Source: Halosolutus gelatinilyticus (lineage in GTDB: Archaea > Halobacteriota > Halobacteria > Halobacteriales > Natrialbaceae). From it: DNA of 64,000 nucleotides. The translations under genes and the position numbers were made by a program. Below the pieces are notes generated by a model. It did not search any database, had not been told where the DNA came from, and was given only the letters and a program-made list of their open reading frames with translations. The stretch is from assembly GCF_023028105.1 (NCBI RefSeq), contig NZ_CP095491.1:496001-560000 (forward strand), written 5' to 3'. Below, one piece after another: positions 5,929 to 57,179 of the stretch (its first letter is position 1; every line of letters begins with the position of its first letter).

Positions 5929-6660
5929 CTACTCTCGGATCGCGGCCACCGCTTCGGTCAGCCGTTCTTCCGCCCGATCGCGGTCGTCGGGATAGCCGAC
6001 GTCGATCCGCCAGCCGTCCATCCGGATCGCGTCGATCGTCCGCCCGGACTGGATGAGGAGATCGATCGCGTCGGGGAGTTCGTACTCGCCGCGATCGCTC
6101 GGCTGGACGAGGTGACACGCGTGGAAGATCTCGGGCGTGAACGTGTAGAAGCCGGTCATGACGAGGTTCGACGGCGGGTTGTCGGGTTTTTCGGTCACCT
6201 CGACGATCTCGCCGTACTCGTTGGTATCGAGGACGCCGTACCGCGAGGCCTCCTCGTAGGGAACTTCCTCGACGAGGAACGCGGCGTCCGCGCGCTCCTC
6301 TCGCTGTCGGTTGATCACGTCCCCGAGGTTCGCCCGGAAGACGTTGTCGCCGAGCATGAGCATGAAGTCGTCGTCGACGTGGGGCTCCGCCTGCAGGATG
6401 GCGTGTGCGAGTCCGAGCTGCTCTCGCTGGTGGGCATAGGTGATCGGAACGCCCTCGTACTCGTCGCCGTACCGTTCGATGATCTTCTCTTTCATGTAGC
6501 CGACGACGACGACGAACTCGGTCGCGCCGATCTCGATGAGATTGTCGAAGACGTCCTCGATGAGCGGTTTGCCGTCGACCTCGACGAGGACCTTGGGTTT
6601 GTCTTCGGTGAGCGGCCGAAGGCGGGTACCCTTGCCCGCGGCCAGGACAACTGCTTGCAT
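5929..6660 (-). CDS. aglF: Glucose-1-phosphate nucleotidyltransferase (AglF type)
   Basis: This protein of 243 residues should make a nucleotide sugar (UDP- or dTDP-glucose) from sugar-1-phosphate. I start it at the ATG at 6660 (MQAVVLAAGKGTRL) because the family signature begins right there; an upstream ATG at 6687 would add nine atypical residues. Other landmarks are K-P-K near residue 25 and MLGDNVF, whose Asp binds metal. It is convergent with the repeat protein, 12 bases away. With AglM nearby the likely role is supplying UDP-glucose for oxidation to glucuronate. dTDP-glucose pyrophosphorylase is the alternative. Confidence 0.85.
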   Translation of the reverse strand: MQAVVLAAGKGTRLRPLTEDKPKVLVEVDGKPLIEDVFDNLIEIGATEFVVVVGYMKEKIIERYGDEYEGVPITYAHQREQLGLAHAILQAEPHVDDDFMLMLGDNVFRANLGDVINRQREERADAAFLVEEVPYEEASRYGVLDTNEYGEIVEVTEKPDNPPSNLVMTGFYTFTPEIFHACHLVQPSDRGEYELPDAIDLLIQSGRTIDAIRMDGWRIDVGYPDDRDRAEERLTEAVAAIRE

Positions 6661-16478: not shown

Positions 16479-16513
16479 AAGACTTATTCTTGGGTTCGGT
16501 CTGGTGCAAGCTA

Positions 16514-19495
16514 ATGAGTACCGACACTGAACACGTCGAGGAGGGAACGGAAACGTCCGTCCTCGAGGCGTGGCAGGACTGGTATCACCTCCCCGTGGTC
16601 GGAGTCGTGATGCTGTTTATGATCTGGGTGCGGACCCAGGCGTACGACCGCTTCGTCACCGACGACGGTTCGCCTGCCCTGGCGGGTATCGACTCGTGGT
16701 ATCACTGGCGGACGATCAAGTGGACCGCGGAGAACTACCCGCAAACGATGCCCTACGAGATCTGGACCGGGTTCCCGACCGGGAAGTACGTCGGCCAGTT
16801 CGGGACCCTGTTCGACCAGCTCATCGTCACCGCGGCGATGATCGTCGGGTTCGGCGATCCGTCGACCGAGACGCTGTACTCGGTCGCCCTCCTCGCCATC
16901 CCGACGATGGCCGCGCTCGCCGCGGTTCCGGTCTTCTACGGCGGTCGCCGACTCGGCGGCACGATGGGCGGACTCGTCTCCGTGGTCATCCTCGCGCTTA
17001 CCCCCGGCCAGTTCTTCGCCCGATCGACGGTGGGACAGCTCGACCACCACGTCGGCGAGACGCTGTTCATGGCGATCGCGGTCGTCGCGATGATGGTCGC
17101 GCTCGGCGTCGCCGAGCGGGAACAGCCGATCTACGAACTGATCGTCGACAAAGACTGGGGCGCCCTCCGGACGCCGGCGCTGTACAGCGCTCTCGCCGGG
17201 CTTGCGCTCGCGCTGTACATCTGGGTCTGGCCGGCGGCGGTCCTCCTGATCGGCATCTTCGGCGTCTTCTTCGCCGTTCAGCTCTGCCTCGATTACCTCC
17301 GCGGCGTCTCCCCGGATCACGTCGCCTTCGTGGGCGCGGTCAGCCTCGGCGTCACGGCCGTCGTGACGGCGCTGCTGATCGAACGATCGGGGATCGGCGT
17401 AACGAGCTTCAGCTACCTCCAGCCGCTCACCGCGCTCCTCGTCGCCGCCGGCTGCGTCTTCATGGCCTGGCTCGCCCGCGAGTGGAGCGCCCGCGGCCTC
17501 GAACCCCGGTACTACCCGGCGACGATCGTCGGGATCGCGATCGCAGCCGTTGCGGTCATGTGGCTCGCGCTCCCGGGACTCTACGAGACGTTCATCGGGA
17601 ACCTTACGAGTCGCCTGATCCCGCTTAATCCGGGGACGGGGACGCTGACGATCCAGGAGGCGCAGCCGCCGGAGAACTTCCTCTCGCAGTACGTCTTCGA
17701 CGAGTTCGGCGCGGCGTTCTACACGATGCTCGTCGGCCTCGCGCTGCTCGTCGCGCGTCCGCTCCTCGGTCGCGAATTTCGCGCCGAGTACACCCTTATC
17801 GCCGTCTGGACGCTGTTCCTGATCAGCATGGCCGCAACGCAGGTCCGCTTCGCGTACTACCTCGTGCTCGCGGTCGCGATCGTCAACGCCGTCTTCGTCG
17901 CTGACGTCGTGCGCCTGTTCAGTCTCGACGTTCGAGGCGGCGTGGATTCGCTCAGGGAGATCGAAACCTACCAGGTTATCGTGGTCTTCATGGTCGTCCT
18001 GCTGGTGTTCGCGCCGCTCGTCCCGCCGCTCGCCGCCGCGGGCACGACCGTCGTCGACCGCGGCAAGACCGCACAGCCGCACTCCGGCGCCGAGGTCTGG
18101 GAGGAGTCGACCCACTGGCTCGCGGAGAACACGCCCGAGCCCGGGAACTACGGCGGCGCCGGGAATGCCAGCGAACTCGACTACTACGGCACCTACGATC
18201 CCGCCGACGGGGATTACGACTATCCCAACGGCGCCTACGGCGTGATGTCCTGGTGGGACTACGGCCACTTCATCACGACACAGGGCGAGCGGATCCCGCA
18301 CTCGAACCCGTTCCAGCAGAACGCCCGCTCGTCGTCGGCGTACCTCACCGCCGAATCCGAGGAACAGGGCGAACTGATCCTCGACGCGATCGCCTCCGGG
18401 GCGGACGTACGCTGGCGGAATTACCAGAACGAAGACCTCGAGGCGGCGGTCGCGGAGGCCAACGGCACCGACGAGGAGATCCGGTACGTGATGATCGACG
18501 ACCAGATGGCCGGCGGAAAGTTCAGCGCGATCACCCAGTGGGCCGGACCGGGTTACAACCACTACGTAACCCCCGACGGATTCGAGAGGGGCGAGTCGAT
18601 CTCCGCCCAGGAACTCGCGAACGCCTCGCTGCCGTACGACGATACGATGCAGTCGCGGCTCTACTTCGGGGACGCGAACGGGATGGAACACTACCGGCTC
18701 GTCCACGAGAACGACGCGTACACGATGGCGTTCACGAGTTACGCGTTCGTAAACGCCGAAACCGGGAACGTGCTCACTCAGGACCTGAGGTCGCTGTCCA
18801 ACGGGGTGCCGGCCGACGAGGCCAAGTGGGATCCCCAAATCTACGTCAACGAGCGGGGCACGCCGCGGCAGATCCAACAGCGGTACGCCTTCCTTCAGCG
18901 GATCCCTGGCATCGAACTGCAGATCTTCGACGTTCGACAGGCCAGCGCGATAAAGACGTTCGAGCGCGTCGAAGGGGCGACGATCACCGGCACCGCCGAG
19001 GGCGTTCCCGAGGGCGAGTCCGTCTACGCCCAGGTCGAACTCGATCGCGGGACCGGCGGCGGAAACTTCACCTACGTCCAGGAGGCGACCGTGCAGGCCG
19101 ACGGGAGCTTCGAACTGACCGTCCCGTACGCGACGAACGACGAACTCGGCGTCGAAGACGGCTACACGAACAGCTCCGTCGAGGCGATGGGCGAGTACAC
19201 CGTGGTCGCAGGCCAGTACGCGGGACAGACCGCGGTCCCCGAAACGGCCGTCGTCGAGGGAGAGACCGTCGAGGTGACTCTCGAAGAGGTCGAAGATCCC
19301 CCGGAAATCGACGACGGAAACGAAACCGACGGTGGGAACGAGACTGACGCCGGAAACGAAACCGACGGCGGAAACGAAACCGACGGCGCGAACGACGGAG
19401 CCGGCAACGAGAGCAATGAGAGCAACGAGAGCGCGAACGCCGGAAACGCGACCGCCGAACGCGTCGTCTCGCCCGCGGTCGACGTCGCGTCCTGA
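16514..19495 (+). CDS. aglB: Dolichyl-phospho-oligosaccharide: protein glycotransferase (STT3/AglB)
   Basis: This 993-residue protein moves the lipid-linked glycan onto Asn of N-x-S/T sequons outside the cell. The start at 16514 (MSTDTEHVEEG) is chosen over an ATG at 16490 because it follows the TATA box at normal distance. The first loop has Asp60 in GIDSWYHWR. A multi-pass domain covers roughly residues 30-520. The external domain carries the sequon-binding WWDYG at 580-584 and a D-x2-M-x3-K-x3-I motif beginning at Asp662 (DDQMAGGKFSAI), the DM-type archaeal variant. The last 60 residues are a low-complexity Gly/Asn/Glu/Asp tail with eight N-x-S/T sequons. The DUF368 gene follows. Confidence 0.95.
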   Translation: MSTDTEHVEEGTETSVLEAWQDWYHLPVVGVVMLFMIWVRTQAYDRFVTDDGSPALAGIDSWYHWRTIKWTAENYPQTMPYEIWTGFPTGKYVGQFGTLFDQLIVTAAMIVGFGDPSTETLYSVALLAIPTMAALAAVPVFYGGRRLGGTMGGLVSVVILALTPGQFFARSTVGQLDHHVGETLFMAIAVVAMMVALGVAEREQPIYELIVDKDWGALRTPALYSALAGLALALYIWVWPAAVLLIGIFGVFFAVQLCLDYLRGVSPDHVAFVGAVSLGVTAVVTALLIERSGIGVTSFSYLQPLTALLVAAGCVFMAWLAREWSARGLEPRYYPATIVGIAIAAVAVMWLALPGLYETFIGNLTSRLIPLNPGTGTLTIQEAQPPENFLSQYVFDEFGAAFYTMLVGLALLVARPLLGREFRAEYTLIAVWTLFLISMAATQVRFAYYLVLAVAIVNAVFVADVVRLFSLDVRGGVDSLREIETYQVIVVFMVVLLVFAPLVPPLAAAGTTVVDRGKTAQPHSGAEVWEESTHWLAENTPEPGNYGGAGNASELDYYGTYDPADGDYDYPNGAYGVMSWWDYGHFITTQGERIPHSNPFQQNARSSSAYLTAESEEQGELILDAIASGADVRWRNYQNEDLEAAVAEANGTDEEIRYVMIDDQMAGGKFSAITQWAGPGYNHYVTPDGFERGESISAQELANASLPYDDTMQSRLYFGDANGMEHYRLVHENDAYTMAFTSYAFVNAETGNVLTQDLRSLSNGVPADEAKWDPQIYVNERGTPRQIQQRYAFLQRIPGIELQIFDVRQASAIKTFERVEGATITGTAEGVPEGESVYAQVELDRGTGGGNFTYVQEATVQADGSFELTVPYATNDELGVEDGYTNSSVEAMGEYTVVAGQYAGQTAVPETAVVEGETVEVTLEEVEDPPEIDDGNETDGGNETDAGNETDGGNETDGANDGAGNESNESNESANAGNATAERVVSPAVDVAS

Positions 19496-19616: not shown

Positions 19617-20543
19617 ATGCGGGAACTTCTCGTCGTCTACTGCAAGGGATTCTCGATGGGATCGGCGGACGTCGTCCCCGGCGTTTCGGGGGCGACGATC
19701 GCGCTCATCGTCGGGATCTACGATCGGTTGATCGCCGCGATCACGGCGATCGATCCGCGCCGATTCGGAGCGATCCGCCGCGTTCACGAGCCGGAGGGGC
19801 GGGCGGCGCTCCAGGCAGAACTCGAACGAATCGACGCGCCGTTTCTACTGGCGTTGGGGTTGGGGATCGCGACGGCGATCGTGACGCTCTCCCGGGTCAT
19901 GCACGTCGCGACCGCCGAGTACCCCGTTCCGACGTACGGCTTCTTCTTCGGGTTGATCGCCGCCTCGGCGATCGTCCTCTACGGCGAGATCGACGAGTGG
20001 ACCGCGTGGCGGGTCGCGGTCTCCGTTGCGGCCGTCGTCTTCGCGGCGGCCGTGACGGGCGTCACCGCGGGCGCCACGTCGCACGGACCGGCGATGGTCT
20101 TTTTCGCCGGCGCGATCGCGATCTGTGCGATGATTCTCCCGGGCGTCTCCGGATCGTTCTTCCTGCTGGTGCTCGGTCAGTACGAGTATATGACCGGGAC
20201 CCTGAGCCGGTTCGTCGACGGCGTTCTCGGCGCGCTGAACGGCGATCCGCTGGCGCCGGTCGTCGAGACCGGAACGGTCGTCGCGATCTTCGGCGTCGGG
20301 GCGGTACTCGGGCTGTTTACGATGGCTCACGTCGTCCGCCGGGCGCTCGATCGGTACCGGCAGACGACGTTGGCGTTCCTCGTGAGTCTGATGGTCGGCG
20401 CGCTCGGGTTGCCGATCGCCAGAATCGAGGATGGACTCGGCGTCACGCCCGGCGGAACGCTCGGCGTCGCGCTCTTCGCGGCCGTCGTCGGCGCGGCAGC
20501 CGTCCTGCTGGTCGATCGGTACACGGATGATCTGGAGTACTAG
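19617..20543 (+). CDS. DUF368 (PopT-type) polyprenyl-phosphate translocase candidate
   Basis: The 308-residue protein has about eight membrane segments. It opens with the DUF368 signature KGFSMGSADVVPGVSGATIAL and repeats a related motif in the second half (ILPGVSGSFFLLVLGQYEYM). Bacterial DUF368 proteins (PopT) were shown to return undecaprenyl phosphate across the membrane. Here it sits directly downstream of aglB. By inference it could recycle the dolichyl phosphate left after glycan transfer. A TATA-like TCCTTTTG near 19584 gives it its own promoter about 27 bases before the ATG. Confidence 0.85.
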   Translation: MRELLVVYCKGFSMGSADVVPGVSGATIALIVGIYDRLIAAITAIDPRRFGAIRRVHEPEGRAALQAELERIDAPFLLALGLGIATAIVTLSRVMHVATAEYPVPTYGFFFGLIAASAIVLYGEIDEWTAWRVAVSVAAVVFAAAVTGVTAGATSHGPAMVFFAGAIAICAMILPGVSGSFFLLVLGQYEYMTGTLSRFVDGVLGALNGDPLAPVVETGTVVAIFGVGAVLGLFTMAHVVRRALDRYRQTTLAFLVSLMVGALGLPIARIEDGLGVTPGGTLGVALFAAVVGAAAVLLVDRYTDDLEY

Positions 20544-20645: not shown

Positions 20646-21803
20646 TCAGGCGTCGTCCGCGACGGAGGCTAACGCCCGAAAGGCGATCGTCGGGAATCGA
20701 AGTTCGACGGTGCTGGGACGGCGCCCGCTCCCACTCGAGGGCAGTGGAACGCGCTCGATCACGCCGCGATCGGCGAGTTCGTAGAGGAATCGTTTGACGG
20801 TCCCGGCCGTCAGCGACGATCGGCCCGCGATGTCGGCCGCGACCTCGCGGATCGGCCGACCGGCGGACTCGACCGAGATGAGATCCAACAGAACGTGCTG
20901 GCGCGTTTCCTGGAGCGCGAGCGCCCGGTCGACGTGAACCCCGTTCTCGGGGACGTCGGCCATCGCCGCCTCCAGGTGGCCGGCGTCGATCCGAGCGCTC
21001 CGTTCGTCGCTCGCGAGGATCGCGGCCCCGAACAGGGCCGCGAGCGCGTCGTGCGCGTTGCCGTCGGCCCACTCGGCCAGTTCGCGGACGAATTCGTGGT
21101 CGAGCGCGCCCGCGGCCAGTCCCGTCGACGCTCGATCGGTGACGACGTCGACGAGTTCGTGCTGGCGGTACGCCGGCACGGTGACGGTGGGTCCGTCCCA
21201 CTCGTCGGGTTCGCGCTGACCGACCGCGATCGCGGTGACGCTCTCGGCGGCCGGTTCCAGCAGGGAGCGGACCCGACCGTAGGCGAGCGTCTCCGGTTCG
21301 TCGTGGTGGTCGATCGCGACGATCGCGCGTCGATCGTGCCGTGAGAGGCGGTCGCAGAGGCGATCGCGGAGGTCGTCGGTGCCGACGCCGCTTTCCGGAA
21401 CGGTGTCGCTCGAGACGACGGAGAGGACGGCCCTGTAGAAGGCGAAGGCGCTGTCGACGCGGCGCGCGTCGACGTAGACGAACCACGTCACCGGGCCCGA
21501 ACTGCCGCCGCGAGTCGTCGTTCCCATCGCCTGCGAGGATTCGCCGAACCGTTCGTTCATCGCGTTGAACAGCGCGGTGACGATCGCCGACGTCCCGGAC
21601 CCCGCCGGCCCGACGACGGCGACCGGCGGCGGGAGGCCCCCGTCGAACACCGGCTCGAGTTCGTCGAGCAACTGTTCGAGCACGGGACCGCGGCCGACCG
21701 GCTCGGATCGGTGAACCACCGGGCTGAGGTGTTCGCGATCGACGACGACCGCCCGGCCCTGGTGGACTGACCGCCGACGAGCGATCCGTTCCTGCAGGTT
21801 CAT
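20646..21803 (-). CDS. Cdc6/Orc1-like AAA+ ATPase with winged helix, coupled to glpC
   Basis: This protein of 385 residues has Walker A (GPAGSGTSAI, residues about 63-72), a Walker B-like AIVAIDHHDE, a lid region (AEWADGNAHDALAALFGAA) and a C-terminal winged helix (about 300-370). That is the layout of Orc1/Cdc6 replication initiators and their relatives. The start at 21803 overlaps the glpC stop as ATGA, so its translation is probably coupled to glpC. There is no origin-like AT-rich repeat nearby. A regulatory role linked to glycerol use is therefore an open alternative to a replication role. Longer upstream starts would run inside glpC and are rejected. Confidence 0.8.
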   Translation of the reverse strand: MNLQERIARRRSVHQGRAVVVDREHLSPVVHRSEPVGRGPVLEQLLDELEPVFDGGLPPPVAVVGPAGSGTSAIVTALFNAMNERFGESSQAMGTTTRGGSSGPVTWFVYVDARRVDSAFAFYRAVLSVVSSDTVPESGVGTDDLRDRLCDRLSRHDRRAIVAIDHHDEPETLAYGRVRSLLEPAAESVTAIAVGQREPDEWDGPTVTVPAYRQHELVDVVTDRASTGLAAGALDHEFVRELAEWADGNAHDALAALFGAAILASDERSARIDAGHLEAAMADVPENGVHVDRALALQETRQHVLLDLISVESAGRPIREVAADIAGRSSLTAGTVKRFLYELADRGVIERVPLPSSGSGRRPSTVELRFPTIAFRALASVADDA

Positions 21804-23113
21804 TCCTTCGTCCCGACGAGCGCGTCCTCGAGTACCTCGAGCGTGTGGGTGATCTCGTAGCCGGTTCCGTGTTCCATCTGCATCGAACAGGTCGGACATT
21901 CGGTGAGGCCGGTCGTAGCGTCGGCGGCGTCCATGTGCTCGAACATTTCCTCGCCGATTTTCATGGACGTTTCGTAATTCTCCGCCTTCCAGCCGTAGGT
22001 GCCGGAAATGCCGGAACAGGAGTCGCCGACGTCCTCGGCGTCGACGCCGTCGATCAGGGCCATCAGTTCGACCGTCTGTCCGTCCAGTCCCTGGTTGCGC
22101 GAGTGACACGGCGCGTGGTAGGCGTACCGCTCGCCGTCGACGGACGTCCCCTCGAGCGCGGCCTCGAGATCTTCGTGAACCCGGAGGTACTCGATCGCGT
22201 CCCAGGTGTTCTCGGCGACGGTCTCGGTGTCATCGAAGTCGAACAGTTCGGGGTACTCCTGGCGGAGCGACATCGAACACGAGCTACACGAGGCGATGAC
22301 GTCGGCGCCGTCTTCGATCGCGGCGCCGAGTTCGCGGACGTTCGTCTCGGCCGCCCGGCGCGCGTCGTCTAACATCCCATTCGCGAACATCGGCGTGCCG
22401 GAACAGGACTGCTCGGGGACCATGATCTCGTAGCCGAAGCGTTCGTAGACTCGAACCAGCGCCTTCGCGACCTGCGGGGTGTTGTAGTTCGAGTAGCAGC
22501 CGTGGAAGTAGGCGATGCGCTTGTTCTCGTTTCGAACCTGCGCGCCGCCGCGTTCGGCCCACCACTCCCGGAACGTCTGCGTCGCGAACTCCGGAAACTC
22601 CCGCTCGCCCGTGATGCCGAGCAATTTTTCGCCCATCCACTTCGTGACGGACAGGCCCATCACGAAGTTCGCCGTCCGCGGGAAGGCCGCCCCCAGCGGC
22701 GCGAGTCGACGGTAGTTCGCCAGGATCCGGTTGCGGACGTACTCGCGGGAGAACGTGTCCATGTGCTCGTCGACGTACTCGCCCCGAGCCGCGTTGTGCA
22801 TCTGCGACAGCGGCACCTCGGAGGGGCAGGCGCCGTCGCAGCGCATGCAGTTCGAGCACTTCATCACCGAGCTATCGATGTCGTGGTCCTCCTGGCGCTT
22901 GAGCCGCCACTGCTCGGGTCCCTGGAACTTCGGGCCGGGGAACTCGTCGTCGACCTCCGCCACCGGACAGTTGGTGTCGCAGGTCGAGCACTTATAACAG
23001 TTGTCCGCGCCCGGTCGGAGGTCCATGTCCTCCGCTTCGGGGAAGACCTGGATCGGCTCGAAGTCGTCGCTTCCCGGTACGTGGTCGTCGGTCGGTCGTT
23101 CTGCATCGCTCAT
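21800..23113 (-). CDS. glpC: Anaerobic glycerol-3-phosphate dehydrogenase subunit C
   Basis: The 437-residue subunit carries electrons from GlpAB to the membrane quinone pool. Two [4Fe-4S] ferredoxin motifs are visible near the N-terminus (CYKCSTCDTNCP and CSNCMRCDGACP). Two CCG-type domains follow (CYSNYNTPQ...CSGTPM and HAPCHSRNQG...CSGISGTYG, CPTC). This matches GlpC and the HdrD-like family. It starts 34 bases after glpB ends and shares an ATGA overlap with the downstream ATPase gene. Confidence 0.92.
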   Translation of the reverse strand: MSDAERPTDDHVPGSDDFEPIQVFPEAEDMDLRPGADNCYKCSTCDTNCPVAEVDDEFPGPKFQGPEQWRLKRQEDHDIDSSVMKCSNCMRCDGACPSEVPLSQMHNAARGEYVDEHMDTFSREYVRNRILANYRRLAPLGAAFPRTANFVMGLSVTKWMGEKLLGITGEREFPEFATQTFREWWAERGGAQVRNENKRIAYFHGCYSNYNTPQVAKALVRVYERFGYEIMVPEQSCSGTPMFANGMLDDARRAAETNVRELGAAIEDGADVIASCSSCSMSLRQEYPELFDFDDTETVAENTWDAIEYLRVHEDLEAALEGTSVDGERYAYHAPCHSRNQGLDGQTVELMALIDGVDAEDVGDSCSGISGTYGWKAENYETSMKIGEEMFEHMDAADATTGLTECPTCSMQMEHGTGYEITHTLEVLEDALVGTKE

Positions 23114-23147: not shown

Positions 23148-24536
23148 TCATGGTCGGTACCCCACCTCGTCGCCGGCGCGGCGACCGGCGGCGTAGCCCG
23201 TCGCGAGCGAGACGCCGGCGCCGGACTTCTCGGCCGCGTAGTCGTAGCCGCCGAGCACCGCGCCCGCGGCTCGCAGGTTCTCGAACTCCGGCTCGTCATC
23301 GGCGTCGAGCGGCCGCAGCTCCCGATCGGCCGGGAGTCCGAACCGTGCGTAGGGGTGCTCGCCGAAGGCGTCGTCGACGAACCAGTCGTACCGATCGGGA
23401 GCGTGGGGCACGTAACAGTCGAAGATCGGTTCGAAGACGACGCCCGATCGCTCCGTCGCGGCGGATCCGCCGGCGTCGGCGGGTTCGACCCCGTCGGTTC
23501 GGACGTCGTCGTCACGGGAGCCGGACTCGACGCTGCGGTCCGACCGGATCCCCTTACCGACCAGTCCCCCCGTCGCGAGCACGTACTGCTCGGCCCGGTG
23601 GGGAATCTCCGTCCCGTTCCGGTCGACGATCACGCGATCGATCCGATCGGCGCCGGTCCCGTTCGTCTGGTAGTCAATCACGGGCACGCCCGCGGTCACG
23701 CGAACGCTGGCGTCCTCGAGGGCGGCGTACAGCAGATCGTCGAGTCGCATTCCGGGGAGGCTGGGCGGCCCCATCGGGACTTCGAATACGTCGGCGCCGA
23801 TCGCGGCCGCGAGATCGGCGCGCACTTCGTCCGCGTGTTCGTCGCCCAGGATCGCCGGAAAGCCGACGCGGGACTCGTCCGCGAGGTGCGGGCGAATCGC
23901 TTCCGCGAGCGCCTCGCGGGCGGTCGCGGACCCGGTCCCCGTTTCGACCGTCTCCTCCCGGTCGAGCAGGTTCGAATAGCGGGTGATCTTCGCGTCGTCC
24001 CGACGGATGCCGGGGAACGAGAGGGTCACGCCGCGAGCCTCGAAGGGAACGCCGGCCGCGTCGAGGTGGGCCGCGGCGAGCGGGGCGTCGAAGTCCGCCA
24101 GCGTCTCGAAGCCGACCAGGAGCATGTCCCGCGGATCGCTCGCCAGGCCGGCGGCGGTCGACGCGGGGTAGCGGGCGGTCGGTTTGACGGTCCCGCCGTG
24201 GGTCGGTACGAGCGCGTTCGTATCCGTGTGCCCGCCCTCGTACGCGGGGCCGGCGATCCGGTCGAAGAACGCGAGCGCGTCCCGGATCGTTTCCTCCCCG
24301 ACGCGTCGATAGGGATGGCTATCGGGGAGATCGGCGATCGCGTCGAAGGGATCGACGAGCGGCCCGTTTACGCCGGACGCGTACCCCAGCACGTCGATCA
24401 GGCCGCTGGCGTGGCGGAGCGTGCTCTGTTTGAACGTGACGAGCCGAACGCAGACGTCGCGGTCCGCGGCCGCGAGCGCGGCCGTCGCTCCCGCGAGGCC
24501 GCCGCCGATAACGAGGACGTCGTCTTCGATCGCCAT
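23148..24536 (-). CDS. glpB: Anaerobic glycerol-3-phosphate dehydrogenase subunit B
   Basis: The 462-residue flavoprotein starts with a dinucleotide-binding motif (DVLVIGGGLAGATAALAAA) and ends in a second Rossmann-like part (LRAAGAVLGGYDYA). GlpB pairs with GlpA to oxidise glycerol-3-phosphate to dihydroxyacetone phosphate. The start ATG at 24536 is one base after the glpA stop codon, so the genes are co-translated. An acidic insertion rich in Asp and Gly near residues 340-360 is typical of haloarchaeal surface loops. Confidence 0.9.
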   Translation of the reverse strand: MAIEDDVLVIGGGLAGATAALAAADRDVCVRLVTFKQSTLRHASGLIDVLGYASGVNGPLVDPFDAIADLPDSHPYRRVGEETIRDALAFFDRIAGPAYEGGHTDTNALVPTHGGTVKPTARYPASTAAGLASDPRDMLLVGFETLADFDAPLAAAHLDAAGVPFEARGVTLSFPGIRRDDAKITRYSNLLDREETVETGTGSATAREALAEAIRPHLADESRVGFPAILGDEHADEVRADLAAAIGADVFEVPMGPPSLPGMRLDDLLYAALEDASVRVTAGVPVIDYQTNGTGADRIDRVIVDRNGTEIPHRAEQYVLATGGLVGKGIRSDRSVESGSRDDDVRTDGVEPADAGGSAATERSGVVFEPIFDCYVPHAPDRYDWFVDDAFGEHPYARFGLPADRELRPLDADDEPEFENLRAAGAVLGGYDYAAEKSGAGVSLATGYAAGRRAGDEVGYRP

Positions 24537-24537
24537 C

Positions 24538-26259
24538 TCAGCGCCCTCCGTCGCGTCCGCCGTCGGCGTGCGGTTCCGCTCTCGCGCGGCCGCCGTCGAA
24601 CGCCGAGTACTCGACCGGATCGCTCTCGGTCGCGTTCGCGGGATCGCGATCGCGGTTCATCGTCGTCGCGTGCAGCGCGTAGTTGAGCATGGCCTGTGAG
24701 AGCTGCTCGCCCCAGAGGGCGTGGCGCTCGCCCTTCCAGCGCTCCTGAAAGAGCTCGTCGAGGGCCGCTCGAACCGTCGCCTCGTCGTACTCGGGGTGGA
24801 GCTCGTTCGCCATGTTCTGACAGCAGAAGCCGCCCTGGCAGTTGCCCATCGAGGCGCGCGTCCGAATCCGGATCGCGTTGAGGTCGGAGCCGGACTGCGA
24901 GATTGCGTCCTGAATCTCGGCGCGGGTGACGCCTTCGCACTGGCAGATGACGGGGTTTGCCTCGTTCGTGTCGAGCACCTCGCGCGCGCGGCTGCCGAGC
25001 CGTTGCCTGCTCCGGCGGGCGATCGGCGATCGTAGCCCGAACGAGTCCATGCCGTCGTCGAGCACCGAGCGGTCCTCGCTGCCGGGTAAGGGCTCCGTCG
25101 CGGTGTCACAGGAGGCGCGAACGCCGAGTTTCTCGCAGACGTGATCCGAGATCTGCTCGGCCATCATCCGGTAGGTGGTGAACTTCCCGCCGACGATGCT
25201 GGTCATGCCGGCGACGCCGTCGCGATCGGCGTGGTCGAGCAGGAAGAAATCCCGCGTGATGTCCGTCGGGTCGGTGGTCCCCGTTCCCGGCGGCTCGTAC
25301 AGCGGGCGGACGCCCCAGAACGAGCGGATCGTCCGCGCTTCGGACATGATCGGGACGAGTTCCGAGAGGGTGTCGATCATGTGGTCGACCTCCCACTGCT
25401 CCTCGGGGTAGTCGTCCGGATCCTCGACCTCCTCGTCGGTCGTCCCCAGGATCGCCGTCGTTTCGTGGGGAACGATGATGTCAGCGTCGCCTTTCGGCCG
25501 GCAGCGGTTGATTACCGTGTCGACCTGCCGGACGTTCATAATCGTCATGACGCCCTTCGAGGGGCGCACTTCGACGTTCAGGTCGGCCATCGCGCCGATC
25601 CGGCCGGCCCACGCGCCCGTCGCGTTGACGACGTAGTCGGCCGTGATCTCCTCCGTGGTCCCGGGCGTTCTGTGCGTGCGCTTGCCCGGGCCGGAGTCGT
25701 GGCGCACTTTCGCGCCGTAGATGTCGTCGCCGTCGCGAAGCAGGTCGACGACCTCGGCGTGAGTTTCGACGCGCGCGCCGTGGTTCTCGGCGTCGATGGC
25801 GTTCGCGACGCAGAGTCGGAACGGGTCGACCGCGCCGTCGGGGACCTCGATCGCGCGCTTGACGTCTTTCGCGAGGTACGGCTCGACCTCGCGGGCCTCC
25901 CGTCCCGAGAGGGCGCGCGCCGGAATGTCGCACTCGCGACAGCCCTCGAGTTTCTCCCGGAAGTAGTCGTCCGGGTCCTCGGGGCGCTGGACGAACAGCC
26001 CACCGGTCATCTCGACGCAGTGACCGGCGATCTCCCGCAACACTTCGTTCTCTTCGATACACTCCGTCGCGCTGGCCCGATCGGAGACGGCGTACCGACC
26101 GCCGCTGTGGAGGAGGCCGTGCATCCGGCCGGTCGTCCCGCCTGTCAGATTGCCTCGCTCGACGAGCGTGACCTCGAGCCCGCGCATCGCCAGATCCCTG
26201 GCGATACCACAGCCCGTCGATCCGCCCCCGAGGACGAGGACCTCGGTGTTCTGTGCCAT
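24538..26259 (-). CDS. glpA: Anaerobic glycerol-3-phosphate dehydrogenase subunit A
   Basis: The 573-residue catalytic subunit starts with [21 protein letters not shown] for FAD binding and carries the DAO-family pattern [19 protein letters not shown]-terminal BFD-like [2Fe-2S] domain is shown by CQC near residue 430 and [10 protein letters not shown] near 465. It oxidises glycerol-3-phosphate made by GlpK. It heads the glpA-glpB-glpC-ATPase operon. The TATA-like GATAAAATAAA at 26289-26300 on the minus strand gives a leader of only about ten bases. It is divergent from glpK, so one control region serves both. Confidence 0.93.
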
Positions 26260-26288: not shown

Positions 26289-26300
26289 CTTTATTTTATC
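26289..26300 (-). promoter_or_regulatory. TATA box of the glpABC operon
   Basis: Minus-strand GATAAAATAAA lies about 30-40 bases upstream of the glpA ATG. Transcription would begin about ten bases before the start codon. Confidence 0.5.
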
Positions 26301-26484
26301 GGCGCTGGCCGAATACCCATAACAAACGGAATGTATCGCGACCGGTCTCGATCGGCAGAAAATCTCTGTCCGCGATGCGACCGTTCCAGCATCCGTGAAT
26401 ACCCCGAAATCCGGCCAATACGACTCACACTTCCCCCGTAATTATAACGTATATTATGTCATTTCGATGGGGTCTTCGGAAACA

Positions 26485-26493
26485 TTTATAATG
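26485..26493 (+). promoter_or_regulatory. TATA box of glpK
   Basis: TTTATAATG lies about 80 bases before the glpK GTG, predicting a leader of about 55 bases. That leader contains a ribosome binding site (GGGGTGA at 26557-26563). Confidence 0.5.
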
Positions 26494-26569
26494 ATAGTCG
26501 CTACTGTTTACCAATAGCACGCGACCGGCAGTAAAGACATCGCGTGAATTCCGAAAGGGGTGACCAGAA

Positions 26570-28114
26570 GTGACTGATAACACATACGTCGGCGCAGTTG
26601 ACCAGGGGACGACCGGTACCCGGTTCATCGTCTTCGACCACGAGGGGCAAGTCGTCGCCAACGCATACGAGAAACACGAACAGATCTATCCCGAACCCGG
26701 CTGGGTCGAACACGACCCGATGGAGATCTGGGAGAACACGAAAAGCGTCATCACGACGGCGCTCGGACAGGCGGGAATCAGCCCCGAACAGCTCGAGGCG
26801 CTCGGCGTGACGAACCAGCGCGAAACCACGCTGCTGTGGGACGCCGACTCCGGGAAACCGGTCCACAACGCGATCGTCTGGCAGGATCGGCGCACGACCG
26901 ATCGCGTCGAGCAACTCGAGGCCGAGGGGATGGTCGGGACCATCCGCGAGAAGACCGGCCTCGAGGCCGACGCCTACTTCTCGGCGACGAAAGCCGAGTG
27001 GCTGCTGGACAACGCGGATCCGATCAAGATGGAGCGGGCGCGGCCCGACGACATCCGCGATCGCGCCGAACAGGGCGAGGTCCTCTTCGGCACGATCGAC
27101 ACCTGGCTCATCTACAACCTCACGGGCAACCACATCACCGAGGTCACGAACGCGTCCCGGACGATGCTGTACAACATCCACGACCTCGAGTGGGACGACG
27201 AGCTCTTAGCGGAGTTCTCGGTGTCCCGCGAGATGCTGCCCGAAGTCCGTCCCTCCAGCGACGAGGAGACCTACGGGTCGACCGACCCCGACGGGTTCCT
27301 CGAAGCCGAAGTGCCCGTCGCCGGGGCGCTCGGCGACCAGCAGGCCGCGCTGTTCGGCCAGACCTGCTTCGACGCCGGCGACGCGAAGAACACCTACGGC
27401 ACGGGGTCGTTCTTCCTAATGAACACCGGCAACGAGGCCGTCGAGAGCGAACACGGTCTGCTGACGACGATCGGGTTCCAGCGGTCGGGCGAGCCCGTCC
27501 AGTACGCCCTCGAGGGCGCCATCTTCATCACCGGCGCCGCGATCGAGTGGCTCGAGGACATGACGCTGATCGACGACCCGGCCGAGACGGCCGAACTCGC
27601 GCGCAGCGTCGACTCGACGGACGGCGTCTATCTCGTCCCCGCCTTCACCGGGTTGGGGGCCCCCCACTGGGACCAACGCGCCCGCGGCACGATCGTCGGG
27701 ATGACCCGCGGCACGCGCAAAGAGCACGTCGTCCGCGCGACCCTCGAGTCGATCGCCTACCAGACCCGCGACGTAACCGAAGCGATGGAAGCCGACTCCG
27801 GCATCGAGATGACGTCGCTGAAGGTCGACGGCGGCGCGGTCAAGAACAACTTCCTCTGCCAGCTCCAGTCGGACATCATCGGCTCGGAAATCGTCCGCCC
27901 GGTCGTCGACGAGACGACGGCGCTCGGCTCCGCGTACGCGGCCGGCCTCGCCGTCGGCTACTGGGAGGACGTCGACAGCCTCCGCGACAACTGGCAGGTC
28001 GACGCCGAGTTCGAACCGGAGATGGACGAAGGCGCGGCGGACGAGATGTACAGCCGCTGGGACGACGCGGTCGATCGTTCCCGCGACTGGGCGAGAGACG
28101 GTGGTAGCGAATGA
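26570..28114 (+). CDS. glpK: Glycerol kinase
   Basis: The 514-residue FGGY-family kinase phosphorylates glycerol to glycerol-3-phosphate. It starts at a GTG (MTDNTYVGAVDQGTTGTRF), six bases after GGGGTGA. The FGGY ATP-site pattern appears as TYGTGSFFLMNTG, and GLGAPHWDQRARG near residue 360 is a glycerol kinase signature. Its stop overlaps the ATG of the next gene (ATGA), which indicates coupling. With glpABC on the other side it converts glycerol, abundant in brines with Dunaliella, to dihydroxyacetone phosphate. Confidence 0.95.
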   Translation: MTDNTYVGAVDQGTTGTRFIVFDHEGQVVANAYEKHEQIYPEPGWVEHDPMEIWENTKSVITTALGQAGISPEQLEALGVTNQRETTLLWDADSGKPVHNAIVWQDRRTTDRVEQLEAEGMVGTIREKTGLEADAYFSATKAEWLLDNADPIKMERARPDDIRDRAEQGEVLFGTIDTWLIYNLTGNHITEVTNASRTMLYNIHDLEWDDELLAEFSVSREMLPEVRPSSDEETYGSTDPDGFLEAEVPVAGALGDQQAALFGQTCFDAGDAKNTYGTGSFFLMNTGNEAVESEHGLLTTIGFQRSGEPVQYALEGAIFITGAAIEWLEDMTLIDDPAETAELARSVDSTDGVYLVPAFTGLGAPHWDQRARGTIVGMTRGTRKEHVVRATLESIAYQTRDVTEAMEADSGIEMTSLKVDGGAVKNNFLCQLQSDIIGSEIVRPVVDETTALGSAYAAGLAVGYWEDVDSLRDNWQVDAEFEPEMDEGAADEMYSRWDDAVDRSRDWARDGGSE

Positions 28115-29235
28115 TCGACCAGCTCCTCGATCTCGCGGAGATCATCGCCGCCTTCGGCGGCGGCGCGTTCGGGGCGGCGCTCGGCGCGCTGCCGGCGTTC
28201 ATCTTCACCGGCTTCATGGTGATCGCCGGCGAGGCCGCCGCGATCACGGGCGTCGAAGGTGCGGACGCGATCACCGCGAACGTCGCCTTCGGGCCGCCGT
28301 TCTCGCCGGCGATCAGCTTCGCCGGCGGCGCCGCCGCGACGGCGTACGCGGCTCGGCGGGGCTACATCGACACGGGCTTCGACTACCACGAGGCGAAGAA
28401 CATCGCCTTCGCGCTCGGGACCAAGCCCGACGTGCTGGCCGTCGGCGGCGCCTTCGGCGTTCTGGGCTACTGGCTGACCACGATTTCGGCCCAGTTCGTG
28501 GGCGGTATGCCCTACGACCCGATCGCCATGGGCGTCGTCCTCTCGGCGCTGTTCCACCGGCTGATACTCGGCTACAGCATCATCGGGAAGGTCCGCGGCT
28601 CGGGCATCCTCGACATGACGCCCTTCGAGCGCGAGGAGCGCCGCCCCGCCGCCGACGTCGCGACCGACGGCGGCGAAGCCGAAGCGCAGGCCGACGCCGC
28701 GCCCGCCGCCGCGGCCCAAACCGGCCGCTTCGCGGTCGAACCGTGGCTGCCCCACCAGTACAAGTGGGCCAACGTCGCCGCGATCGGCGCCGTCGCGGGG
28801 CTGCTGGGCGCATACGTCGCCATCTCGACTGAAAGCGCGTTCCTCGCGTTCGGGATCAGCGCCGCGACGCTGGTGTTCCTCAACTGCGGCGTCGAACAGA
28901 TCCCCGTGACCCACCACATGACCCTGCCCGCCTCGACGGCCGCGATGTCGGTCTACGACTGGGGCGGCAGCGGCGAGTTCTTCGATCCGAACCTCGTCAC
29001 CTACCAGGACGGCGCGCTCCTCGCGGCCCAGCCCCTGGAGGTCGCGCTACTCGTCGGTCTCGTCTTCGGCGTGATCAGCGCGCTGTTCGGCGAGCTGTTC
29101 CAGCGGGTGTTCTACGCCCACGGCGATACCCACTGGGACCCGCCGGCGGCGGCGATCGTCTTCGGGACCTTCGTGGTCTCGATCATGTACGCCCTCGGCG
29201 TCTTCCCGCACACCGTGTGGGTCCCGTGGTTCTGA
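28111..29235 (+). CDS. GlpX-type polytopic membrane protein, putative glycerol facilitator
   Basis: The 374-residue protein has about nine hydrophobic segments and no aquaporin NPA boxes. It is the membrane protein that follows glpK in Haloferax, where it has been called GlpX and suspected to help glycerol uptake; this role is not proved. The ATG overlaps the glpK stop by ATGA. A hydrophilic linker rich in Ala, Glu and Asp (residues about 175-210) splits the protein in two halves. A T5 run after a GC-rich stretch at 29262-29277 may end the transcript. Confidence 0.75.
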   Translation: MIDQLLDLAEIIAAFGGGAFGAALGALPAFIFTGFMVIAGEAAAITGVEGADAITANVAFGPPFSPAISFAGGAAATAYAARRGYIDTGFDYHEAKNIAFALGTKPDVLAVGGAFGVLGYWLTTISAQFVGGMPYDPIAMGVVLSALFHRLILGYSIIGKVRGSGILDMTPFEREERRPAADVATDGGEAEAQADAAPAAAAQTGRFAVEPWLPHQYKWANVAAIGAVAGLLGAYVAISTESAFLAFGISAATLVFLNCGVEQIPVTHHMTLPASTAAMSVYDWGGSGEFFDPNLVTYQDGALLAAQPLEVALLVGLVFGVISALFGELFQRVFYAHGDTHWDPPAAAIVFGTFVVSIMYALGVFPHTVWVPWF

Positions 29236-55811: not shown

Positions 55812-57179
55812 ATGGATAGGGACACGGCGGAACCCGACGCGGGCGAGCTTCCGGGTCCGAACGCGCAGCGATGGGTCGACTTCCATCAGGAGTACTCCGC
55901 GCCCAGCGAGTACTCCCACGAGTTCGTCTGGGACGTCACCCGCGAGGCCGACGGCCCGTTCGTCACGGACGTCGACGGCAACGTGTTGCTCGATTTCACC
56001 TGTCACATCGGCGCGGCGCCGCTCGGCTACAACAACGAGAAGATCACGTCGAAACTCCGCGAGTTCGACCTCGTCGAGCCGATGAAGATCGCCGGCCAGG
56101 ACATGTACTTCGGAGCCGGTTCCGACCCCGCCGAGGCCGAGTTTCCGGGCTCGAGCCACCTGATGGAGAGACTCGTCAACGTCTCGAGCCAGTACGGGAT
56201 GGACACGGTCTTCCTTTCGAACTCCGGCGCGGAGGCCGTCGAGAACGCGATGAAGATCGCCCACGACCACCGGGCGCCTGCGAAGTACGGCGTGGCCTTC
56301 GCCGGCAGCTTCCACGGCCGGACCCTGGGGACGCTCTCGATCACGAAGTCCAAGTCGGTCTACACGCGCCACTACCCCGAGATCGGCGGCATCGAAACGA
56401 TCCCGTTTTGCGACTGTCGGGCCCGCGACAGTTCCGGCGACCCCTGCGACTGCGGATTCTTCACCGGATCGAGCTCGCGGCTCCGCGGCACCCTCTCGCC
56501 GGAGGGCGGTCACATTGATCCCGACGAGATCGCCTTCTTGATCCTCGAGCCGATCCAGGGCGTCGGCGGCTACCGCTTCCCGAGCGAGGGGTTCGTACAG
56601 GAGGTCGCTGACGTCACCGACGAGTACGACATTCCGCTGGTCGTCGACGAGATCCAATCCGGCGTCGGTCGCACCGGCGAGATCTGGGCTTCGGATCACT
56701 ACCCGATCGAACCCGACGTCATCGCCAGCGCGAAGGCGCTGCGCGTCGGCGCGACCATCTCCCGATCGGAGGTGTTCCCCAGCGAGAAGAACCGCCTGGG
56801 ATCGACGTTCGGCGGCGGCGATCTGCTGGGTTCGATGATGGGCGCGTTCACGCTGGAGGCGATCGAGGAGCACGACCTGCTCGACAACGCTACCCGACGC
56901 GGCGAGCAGGCGAAAGAACTGCTCCGGGACGGCGCGCCGTCCCACGTCGAGGACGTCCGCGGCACGGGACTGATGCTCGCGGTCGAGTTCGACACGCCGG
57001 AGCGACGCACCGCCGTGGTCCAGGAGGCGCTGCGACGCGGTCTGCTCACGCTCGGCTGCGGGAAGAAGACTGTCCGGCTGCTCCCGCCGCTGGACTCGAC
57101 CGAGCGCGAGATCGAACTCGGCGTCTCGATCTTCCGCGAGGCGATCGAAGCGGCCGGAACGACCGCGAAGGTCGCCTAG
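55812..57179 (+). CDS. Class III aminotransferase with CxC..CxC insertion
   Basis: The protein of 455 residues has FLSNSGAEAVENAMKIA (PLP phosphate site), VVDEIQSGVGRTGEIW and the Schiff-base Lys308 in ASAKALRVG. It resembles 4-aminobutyrate or lysine 6-aminotransferases of the same fold. Between the PLP phosphate site and the cofactor Asp lies an inserted segment with Cys200, Cys202, Cys212 and Cys214 (FCDCRA, PCDCGF), a possible metal site. It lies 153 bases after the BCCT gene on the same strand. It belongs to the same class as the aminotransferase at 49623 but differs widely. Confidence 0.88.
   Translation: MDRDTAEPDAGELPGPNAQRWVDFHQEYSAPSEYSHEFVWDVTREADGPFVTDVDGNVLLDFTCHIGAAPLGYNNEKITSKLREFDLVEPMKIAGQDMYFGAGSDPAEAEFPGSSHLMERLVNVSSQYGMDTVFLSNSGAEAVENAMKIAHDHRAPAKYGVAFAGSFHGRTLGTLSITKSKSVYTRHYPEIGGIETIPFCDCRARDSSGDPCDCGFFTGSSSRLRGTLSPEGGHIDPDEIAFLILEPIQGVGGYRFPSEGFVQEVADVTDEYDIPLVVDEIQSGVGRTGEIWASDHYPIEPDVIASAKALRVGATISRSEVFPSEKNRLGSTFGGGDLLGSMMGAFTLEAIEEHDLLDNATRRGEQAKELLRDGAPSHVEDVRGTGLMLAVEFDTPERRTAVVQEALRRGLLTLGCGKKTVRLLPPLDSTEREIELGVSIFREAIEAAGTTAKVA

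Follow-up and report, generated by a model that had tools for sequence, protein, structure and literature searches.

A degenerate Orc1/Cdc6-fold protein encoded beside the glycerol genes of haloarchaea as a predicted regulator of glycerol catabolism

The stretch of DNA analysed here, referred to as the window, comprises 64,000 nucleotides (nt) of Halosolutus gelatinilyticus (NZ_CP095491.1, positions 496,001 to 560,000) and contains a row of glycerol (glp) genes that ends in a gene for a degenerate Orc1/Cdc6-fold protein. This protein of 385 residues, encoded by an open reading frame at 20646..21803 on the minus strand, is called GlpO, a name coined in the present analysis for the Orc1/Cdc6-fold family beside glp genes. 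It is preceded on the same strand by glpA (24538..26259; TIGR03377, 742 bits, cut-off 553), glpB (23148..24536; NF003722, 699 bits, cut-off 349) and glpC, which encodes subunit C of the anaerobic glycerol-3-phosphate dehydrogenase (21800..23113; NF008369, 587 bits, cut-off 278), all three being equivalog matches above cut-off. The glycerol kinase gene glpK (26570..28114, plus strand; TIGR01311, 716 bits, cut-off 590) is divergent from the glpABC-glpO row. The ATG of glpO (21803-21801) shares bases with the TGA of glpC (21802-21800), and the resulting ATGA overlap (21800..21803, minus strand) has the geometry of translational coupling. Among 47 parsed loci of the glpABC-glpO arrangement, the gap from the glpC stop to the glpO start lies between -10 and +6 in 46 and equals -4 or -1 in 34, while the lone outlier, at -1203, looks like a parsing error. 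Because the gap is kept so narrowly in 46 of the 47 loci, the tight glpC-glpO junction is not a product of chance.

GlpO has the domain order of an Orc-type AAA+ domain, a Cdc6 lid and a winged helix, as indicated by Pfam, where AAA_16 is above cut-off and the Cdc6_lid and HTH models are sub-threshold, and by a confident predicted structure (predicted local distance difference test, pLDDT, 90.3; predicted template modelling score, pTM, 0.86). The closest solved structures are archaeal Orc1/Cdc6 proteins, which cover nearly the whole chain; 2v1u, for example, aligns over 336 residues with a Z score of 22.8, a root-mean-square deviation of 5.7 Å and 22% identity. The initial annotation had described a 385-residue AAA+ protein with a C-terminal winged helix, which the Pfam results, the model and the structural matches bear out, and had placed its start inside the glpC stop codon as the fourth gene of glpABC, which agrees with the coordinates and the equivalog matches.

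The residues on which ATP hydrolysis depends have been lost. In the window protein, Walker A reads GPAGSGTS, with T71 in place of the lysine, Walker B reads IDHHDE, with histidine for glutamate, and sensor 2 reads GNAHDAL, with histidine for arginine. The catalytic glutamate of Walker B is replaced by histidine in 81 of 81 GlpO homologues (Asp-Glu to Asp-His), and the sensor-2 arginine is likewise replaced in all 81 (by histidine in 79 and by tyrosine in two), where true Orc1s read GDARxAL. The Walker-A lysine is exchanged for threonine in 45 of 45 members of the window's clade and is retained in the other 36 of 36 homologues; all 11 other Orc-like loci examined in the same genome keep GxxGxGK[ST]. 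From these motifs, the GlpO proteins of Natrialbaceae probably do not use even classical ATP binding as a switch. GlpO scores 69.8 bits on TIGR02928, below the family cut-off of 181.3, which eight other loci of the genome exceed. In a midpoint-rooted tree that combines 55 GlpO family rows with nine true Orc1s of this genome, the GlpO rows form one clade apart from the Orc1s with a support of 100/100, and GlpO is thus probably not an initiator, judging by its sequence. Many columns are invariant across 47 aligned homologues, and the winged helix, which carries TVKRFLYELADRG in the window protein, includes a strongly conserved TVKRFLYE motif. Long acidic repetitive insertions lie between Walker B and the lid in three Natrialba homologues (L006, L011 and L017), and glpO has one in-frame TAG in genomes G057 and G087 (genus g3), reflecting either decay or a sequence error.

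The distribution of the family was surveyed with a profile of 47 rows (E <= 1e-30) in 292 genomes of the class, representing 77 genera. The gene is present in 219 genomes and 57 genera, and glpK is present in 251 genomes. The two genes occur together in 217 genomes; 34 have only glpK, 39 have neither gene, and two have glpO without a full glpK, so that 39 of the 41 genomes without a full glpK also lack glpO; these are raw genome counts in which kinship is ignored, and this has to be set against the interpretation given below. In the two remaining genomes, glpK is truncated at a contig end (G122) or lies in pieces (G066). Synteny, which the initial annotation had suggested checking, is conserved: with one genome taken per genus, 52 of 57 genera have glpO no more than 12 kb from glpK, a count on which a chance neighbourhood was rejected. 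In two of the other five (G069 and G142) the genes are truly unlinked; in G066, G082 and G122, contig ends or a gene in pieces interrupt the locus. A glp gene is found in 79 of 80 named loci, the exception (L077) being a short locus. The order of the genes varies, with at least six arrangements: glpABC-glpO, glpK-membrane protein-glpO, glpK-glpO, glpO-glpK, glpO divergent from glpA, and glpO convergent with glpC. Linkage that is kept through so many rearrangements points to a shared function.

Several copies of glpO stand elsewhere. The unlinked copies of G069 (L157) and G142 (L158), which are 1.3 Mb and 381 kb from glpK, respectively, have a ROK kinase gene or popT/aglB-like genes as neighbours. 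Divergent second copies in G045 (L162) and G047 (L161) adjoin glycerol-3-phosphate ABC transporter genes and a gene for a HAD hydrolase; in the G045 locus, UgpC scores above cut-off and a glycerophosphodiester phosphodiesterase gene is present as well, and the UgpB matches are below cut-off. A divergent copy in G041 (L160) also has a UgpB-like gene nearby. Of the plasmid-borne homologues, which RefSeq labels 'AAA family ATPase', H4 has glpK adjacent, and the Haloarcula pelagica copy H3 has no adjacent glp gene and a glycerophosphodiester phosphodiesterase gene about 4 kb away.

Comparison of the regions upstream of glpK revealed a common block directly 3' of the TATA box, which contains a long dyad with the consensus TTGTTTAY-N19-RTAAACAA. 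Ahead of glpK, a loose form of the dyad pattern occurs at 65 of 81 loci, where shuffled sequences would give 0.4, and its spacer is 19 nt in 57 of the 65; the core TTTAY-N19-RTAAR is present in 67 of 76 glpK promoters (75 named loci and the window). The geometry is strict, as the dyad core starts 22 nt from the initial T of the TATA box in 63 of 65 promoters measured, and the weight matrix of the dyad agrees most closely with its reverse complement when no shift is applied (r 0.59). In the window, the TATA box of glpK (TTTATAATG, 26485..26493, plus strand) lies 22 nt before the TTTAC of the predicted operator O_K, CTGTTTAC-N19-GTAAAGAC, which occupies 26504..26538 on the plus strand and matches 13 of 16 positions. 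A weaker dyad at the glpA promoter, the predicted operator O_A (TTTGTTAT-N19-ATAAAATA, 26292..26326, minus strand; 12 of 16), belongs to a block that is conserved among members of the window's clade. Variant flanks also occur, such as TACTTTAC-N19-GTAAAGTA at glpA in L263. The sole exact match to the core TGTTTAY-N19-RTAAA in the 4.76-Mb genome is at glpK, and a scan of the same genome for a wider regulon with one mismatch allowed yielded 12 places against 11 for a reversed control, with only glpK standing out. In the main arrangements, no operator was found upstream of glpO itself (0/86) or of the membrane-protein gene that often accompanies glpK (0/31).

If this block were merely a core promoter element, it should persist in the 34 genomes that have glpK and lack glpO. 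With the dyad scored at the right distance from the TATA box and a cut-off of 11 of 16, 42 of 54 glpO-bearing genera have it at glpK, compared with one of the 34 genomes without glpO and a shuffle rate of 0.65% of 1080 at the same geometry; two further computations gave similar outcomes. The lone exception, G283, has a contig that ends inside glpC, just ahead of the expected glpO. Ten genera hold both states, and seven of these agree fully (g9, g17, g35, g39, g44, g45 and g47), whereas the gene-bearing member also has no site in g33 and g49, which makes them uninformative, and the third of the remaining genera is the G283 case. The dyad also occurs in genomes with displaced copies of the gene. 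G142, with its unlinked glpO, retains a 13-of-16 dyad with a spacer of 20 at glpK; the ugpB promoters beside the divergent copies L162 and L161 bear dyads of 13 and 12 of 16, at a distance from a TATA-like box similar to that at glpK; and the orphan copy L159 (G040) is preceded by a 14-of-16 dyad (6419-6453) with a TATA box, which suggests that this copy is autoregulated.

Several observations weigh against a simple correspondence between gene and operator. At the cut-off used above, a canonical glpK site is missing from 12 of the 54 genera with glpO, for example in G069, G082 and G006. The unlinked glpK of G069 has just a 10-of-16 site, no site of at least 12 was found within 18 kb in two genomes of g28, the large genus to which G006 belongs, and the promoter of the ugpB-like gene at L160 is without the dyad. 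The site on the glpA side is weak, reaching 11 or more in 55 of 68 loci with the gene and in five of 22 without it. The scores of gene-bearing promoters are, moreover, biased upward because the motif was derived from them, and the fairer test is the comparison with the homologous promoters of genomes lacking glpO.

Based on these sequence comparisons, we consider that GlpO is an Orc1/Cdc6 paralogue without ATP-hydrolysis machinery that now serves as a dedicated DNA-binding regulator of haloarchaeal glycerol catabolism, with a probability of roughly 0.8. Binding of GlpO to the dyad, its action as a dimer, repression over activation and the nature of the effector are the parts of this proposal that we infer. 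A GlpO dimer would dock through its winged helices on the long dyad over the predicted glpK start site, would also occupy the weaker dyad on the divergent glpA side, and would keep transcription blocked until the operator is freed by glycerol or, with greater likelihood, by glycerol-3-phosphate. As the last gene of the glpABC operon, glpO would control its own level by feedback. The choice of glycerol-3-phosphate as the effector is a guess, made because second copies of the gene adjoin glycerol-3-phosphate transporter genes. A Walker-B mutant of Saccharolobus Orc1-2 has been described as still binding DNA well while losing the switch-off that depends on hydrolysis (PMC9738581), and as the glutamate-to-histidine exchange of GlpO matches this mutant in position, hydrolysis is unlikely to be the switch in GlpO. 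More tentatively, GlpO could found a class of archaeal one-component regulators, in which a dead AAA+ pocket would serve as a sensor of glycerol-3-phosphate or a related metabolite, the winged helix would have acquired an operator of the pathway as its new target, and some copies would have been re-used for the ugp genes of glycerol-3-phosphate uptake.

It appears reasonably probable that GlpO represses transcription from the promoters of glpK and glpA, since the 22-nt spacing, combined with the usual position of the archaeal TATA box, would place the dyad over the predicted start site, where a repressor is expected. In archaea, activator sites usually lie upstream of the TATA box, whereas the dyad begins 22 nt past its first T, which makes it unlikely that GlpO instead activates glpK and glpA. 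The same linkage and operator evidence would nevertheless also fit an activator, the TATA region beside the dyad is unusually uniform, and there is a precedent in Orc1-2, for which control of DNA-damage-responsive promoters has been described (PMC9738581).

The tie between dyad and GlpO is a correlation, and some genera with the gene are without the dyad; the dyad might be the site of a different regulator, one usually lost alongside GlpO, with GlpO binding elsewhere or acting at the protein level, for example on GlpK. This explanation is improbable, as the dyad recurs at the ugpB promoters by the divergent copies and before an orphan copy far from glp genes, and persists in G142 with its unlinked glpO, so that a second, co-lost regulator would need to have followed the gene in all of these cases.

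It is still less probable that GlpO has remained a replication protein, either a dormant initiator or an inhibitor, that couples glycerol supply to replication. The Orc1/Cdc6 fold speaks for such a role, and haloarchaea are reported to have dormant and inactive origins (PMC3528665); on the other hand, the Walker-B and sensor-2 residues are gone from all 81 homologues, the genome's sole exact operator is at glpK, and glpO is absent from 73 of the 292 genomes, including nearly all of those without a full glpK. Of four true orc1 genes examined in the same genome, three (L114, L115 and L116) are flanked by repeat families that resemble origin boxes, and an exact search for these elements, covering the box types of this genome's true Orc1s, found none near glpO in the window; a single 9-mer match stands at 56775. 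The remark of the initial annotation that no origin is evident thus holds. In Haloarcula hispanica, no replicating activity is reported for three cdc6 loci that lack origin boxes (PMC3528665), and most cdc6 genes, save a few that are origin-linked, are described as deletable (PMC3936714), a set that may or may not include the GlpO orthologue. Of the two roles that it had offered, that of a metabolic regulator is favoured by the glp linkage, the co-occurrence with glpK and an operator that tracks the gene, whereas a link between glycerol supply and replication was rejected as the principal role, given the lost ATPase motifs, the absent boxes, the glpK-dependent distribution and the sole strong operator at glpK. 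That glpO rides along by chance or is a duplicate in decay, without a glycerol function, as its degenerate ATPase motifs and the in-frame TAG in two genomes might suggest, is scarcely credible and strongly disfavoured by the many invariant columns of the aligned homologues and by linkage in most genera through many arrangements.

The opposite flank of glpO carries a polyprenyl-phosphate transporter (popT) homologue (19617-20543, plus strand) and a large membrane protein, putatively AglB (16490-19495, plus strand). A popT homologue also follows glpO in several relatives, and popT/aglB-like genes adjoin glpO in G142, a genome whose glp genes now lie elsewhere. On the far side of glpK, a 374-residue membrane protein (28111..29235, plus strand), the 5' end of whose gene overlaps the 3' end of glpK, is kept beside glpK in many haloarchaea. 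Neither Pfam nor NCBIfam gives a match to it, even at E = 1, and its model (pLDDT 81.7) weakly matches urea-channel structures: the top 13 structural rows are all urea transporters (Z 7.6-8.2 over 182-210 residues), and the best Foldseek E value is 7e-3. From this model, the protein is a candidate glycerol facilitator, and likely homologues have already been tied to glycerol genes (PMC5496347).

Haloarchaea have far more orc/cdc6 genes than origins, for reasons stated to be unclear (PMC3936714), and the switching-on of glycerol metabolism, which Haloferax prefers as its carbon route, is stated not to be fully understood (PMC12853182); the glpO locus suggests a testable answer to a part of each puzzle. 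If the proposed role is correct, the present labels ('AAA family ATPase' in RefSeq and 'replication initiator' in a Haloferax table) would be misleading, and GlpO with its dyad would supply a regulator/promoter pair for halophile genetics. Should GlpO also represent the more tentative class of one-component regulators, part of the unexplained orc/cdc6 genes would be metabolic regulators rather than initiators. A literature search on glycerol and orc/cdc6 returned no title or abstract describing an Orc-like glycerol regulator, in a coverage that leaves out most subscription journals.

Among known systems, the archaeal Orc1/Cdc6 initiators (TIGR02928; 2v1u, 2qby) resemble GlpO in their AAA+/lid/winged-helix fold and length and provide its best structural matches; GlpO differs from them in its sub-cut-off score, in the loss of the Walker-B glutamate, the sensor-2 arginine and, in the window, the Walker-A lysine, and in a gene position beside glp genes rather than an origin. 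Orc1-2 of Saccharolobus islandicus, an Orc1 paralogue, is described as a non-initiator transcription regulator of the DNA-damage response (PMC9738581), and GlpO is alike as a putative regulator. A conserved promoter element is common to both types, for GlpO the predicted target dyad that tracks the gene at glpK, whereas GlpO is without intact Walker A and B motifs and the residues for hydrolysis, and has one long palindromic predicted operator at one pathway. In Haloferax volcanii, HVO_1537 (orc15) is listed as a Cdc6/Orc1 initiator in an entry that notes no origin, and its coordinates give 400 residues (PMC2841640), compared with 385 for the window protein. The glycerol-3-phosphate dehydrogenase genes HVO_1538-1540 begin one locus tag later (PMC10294847) and HVO_1541 is glpK (PMC12366361), a position from which HVO_1537 is likely the GlpO orthologue of this model organism. 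In the literature covered by the search, HVO_1537 appears in a single paper, and so does the name orc15 for this species. The DeoR-family GlpR of Haloferax, whose model NF041397 gives GlpO 12.2 bits against a cut-off of 300, and GfcR are likewise regulators of the choice between sugars and glycerol in haloarchaea; their described targets are glucose and fructose genes (PMC12853182), whereas GlpO is predicted to act on the glycerol genes themselves.
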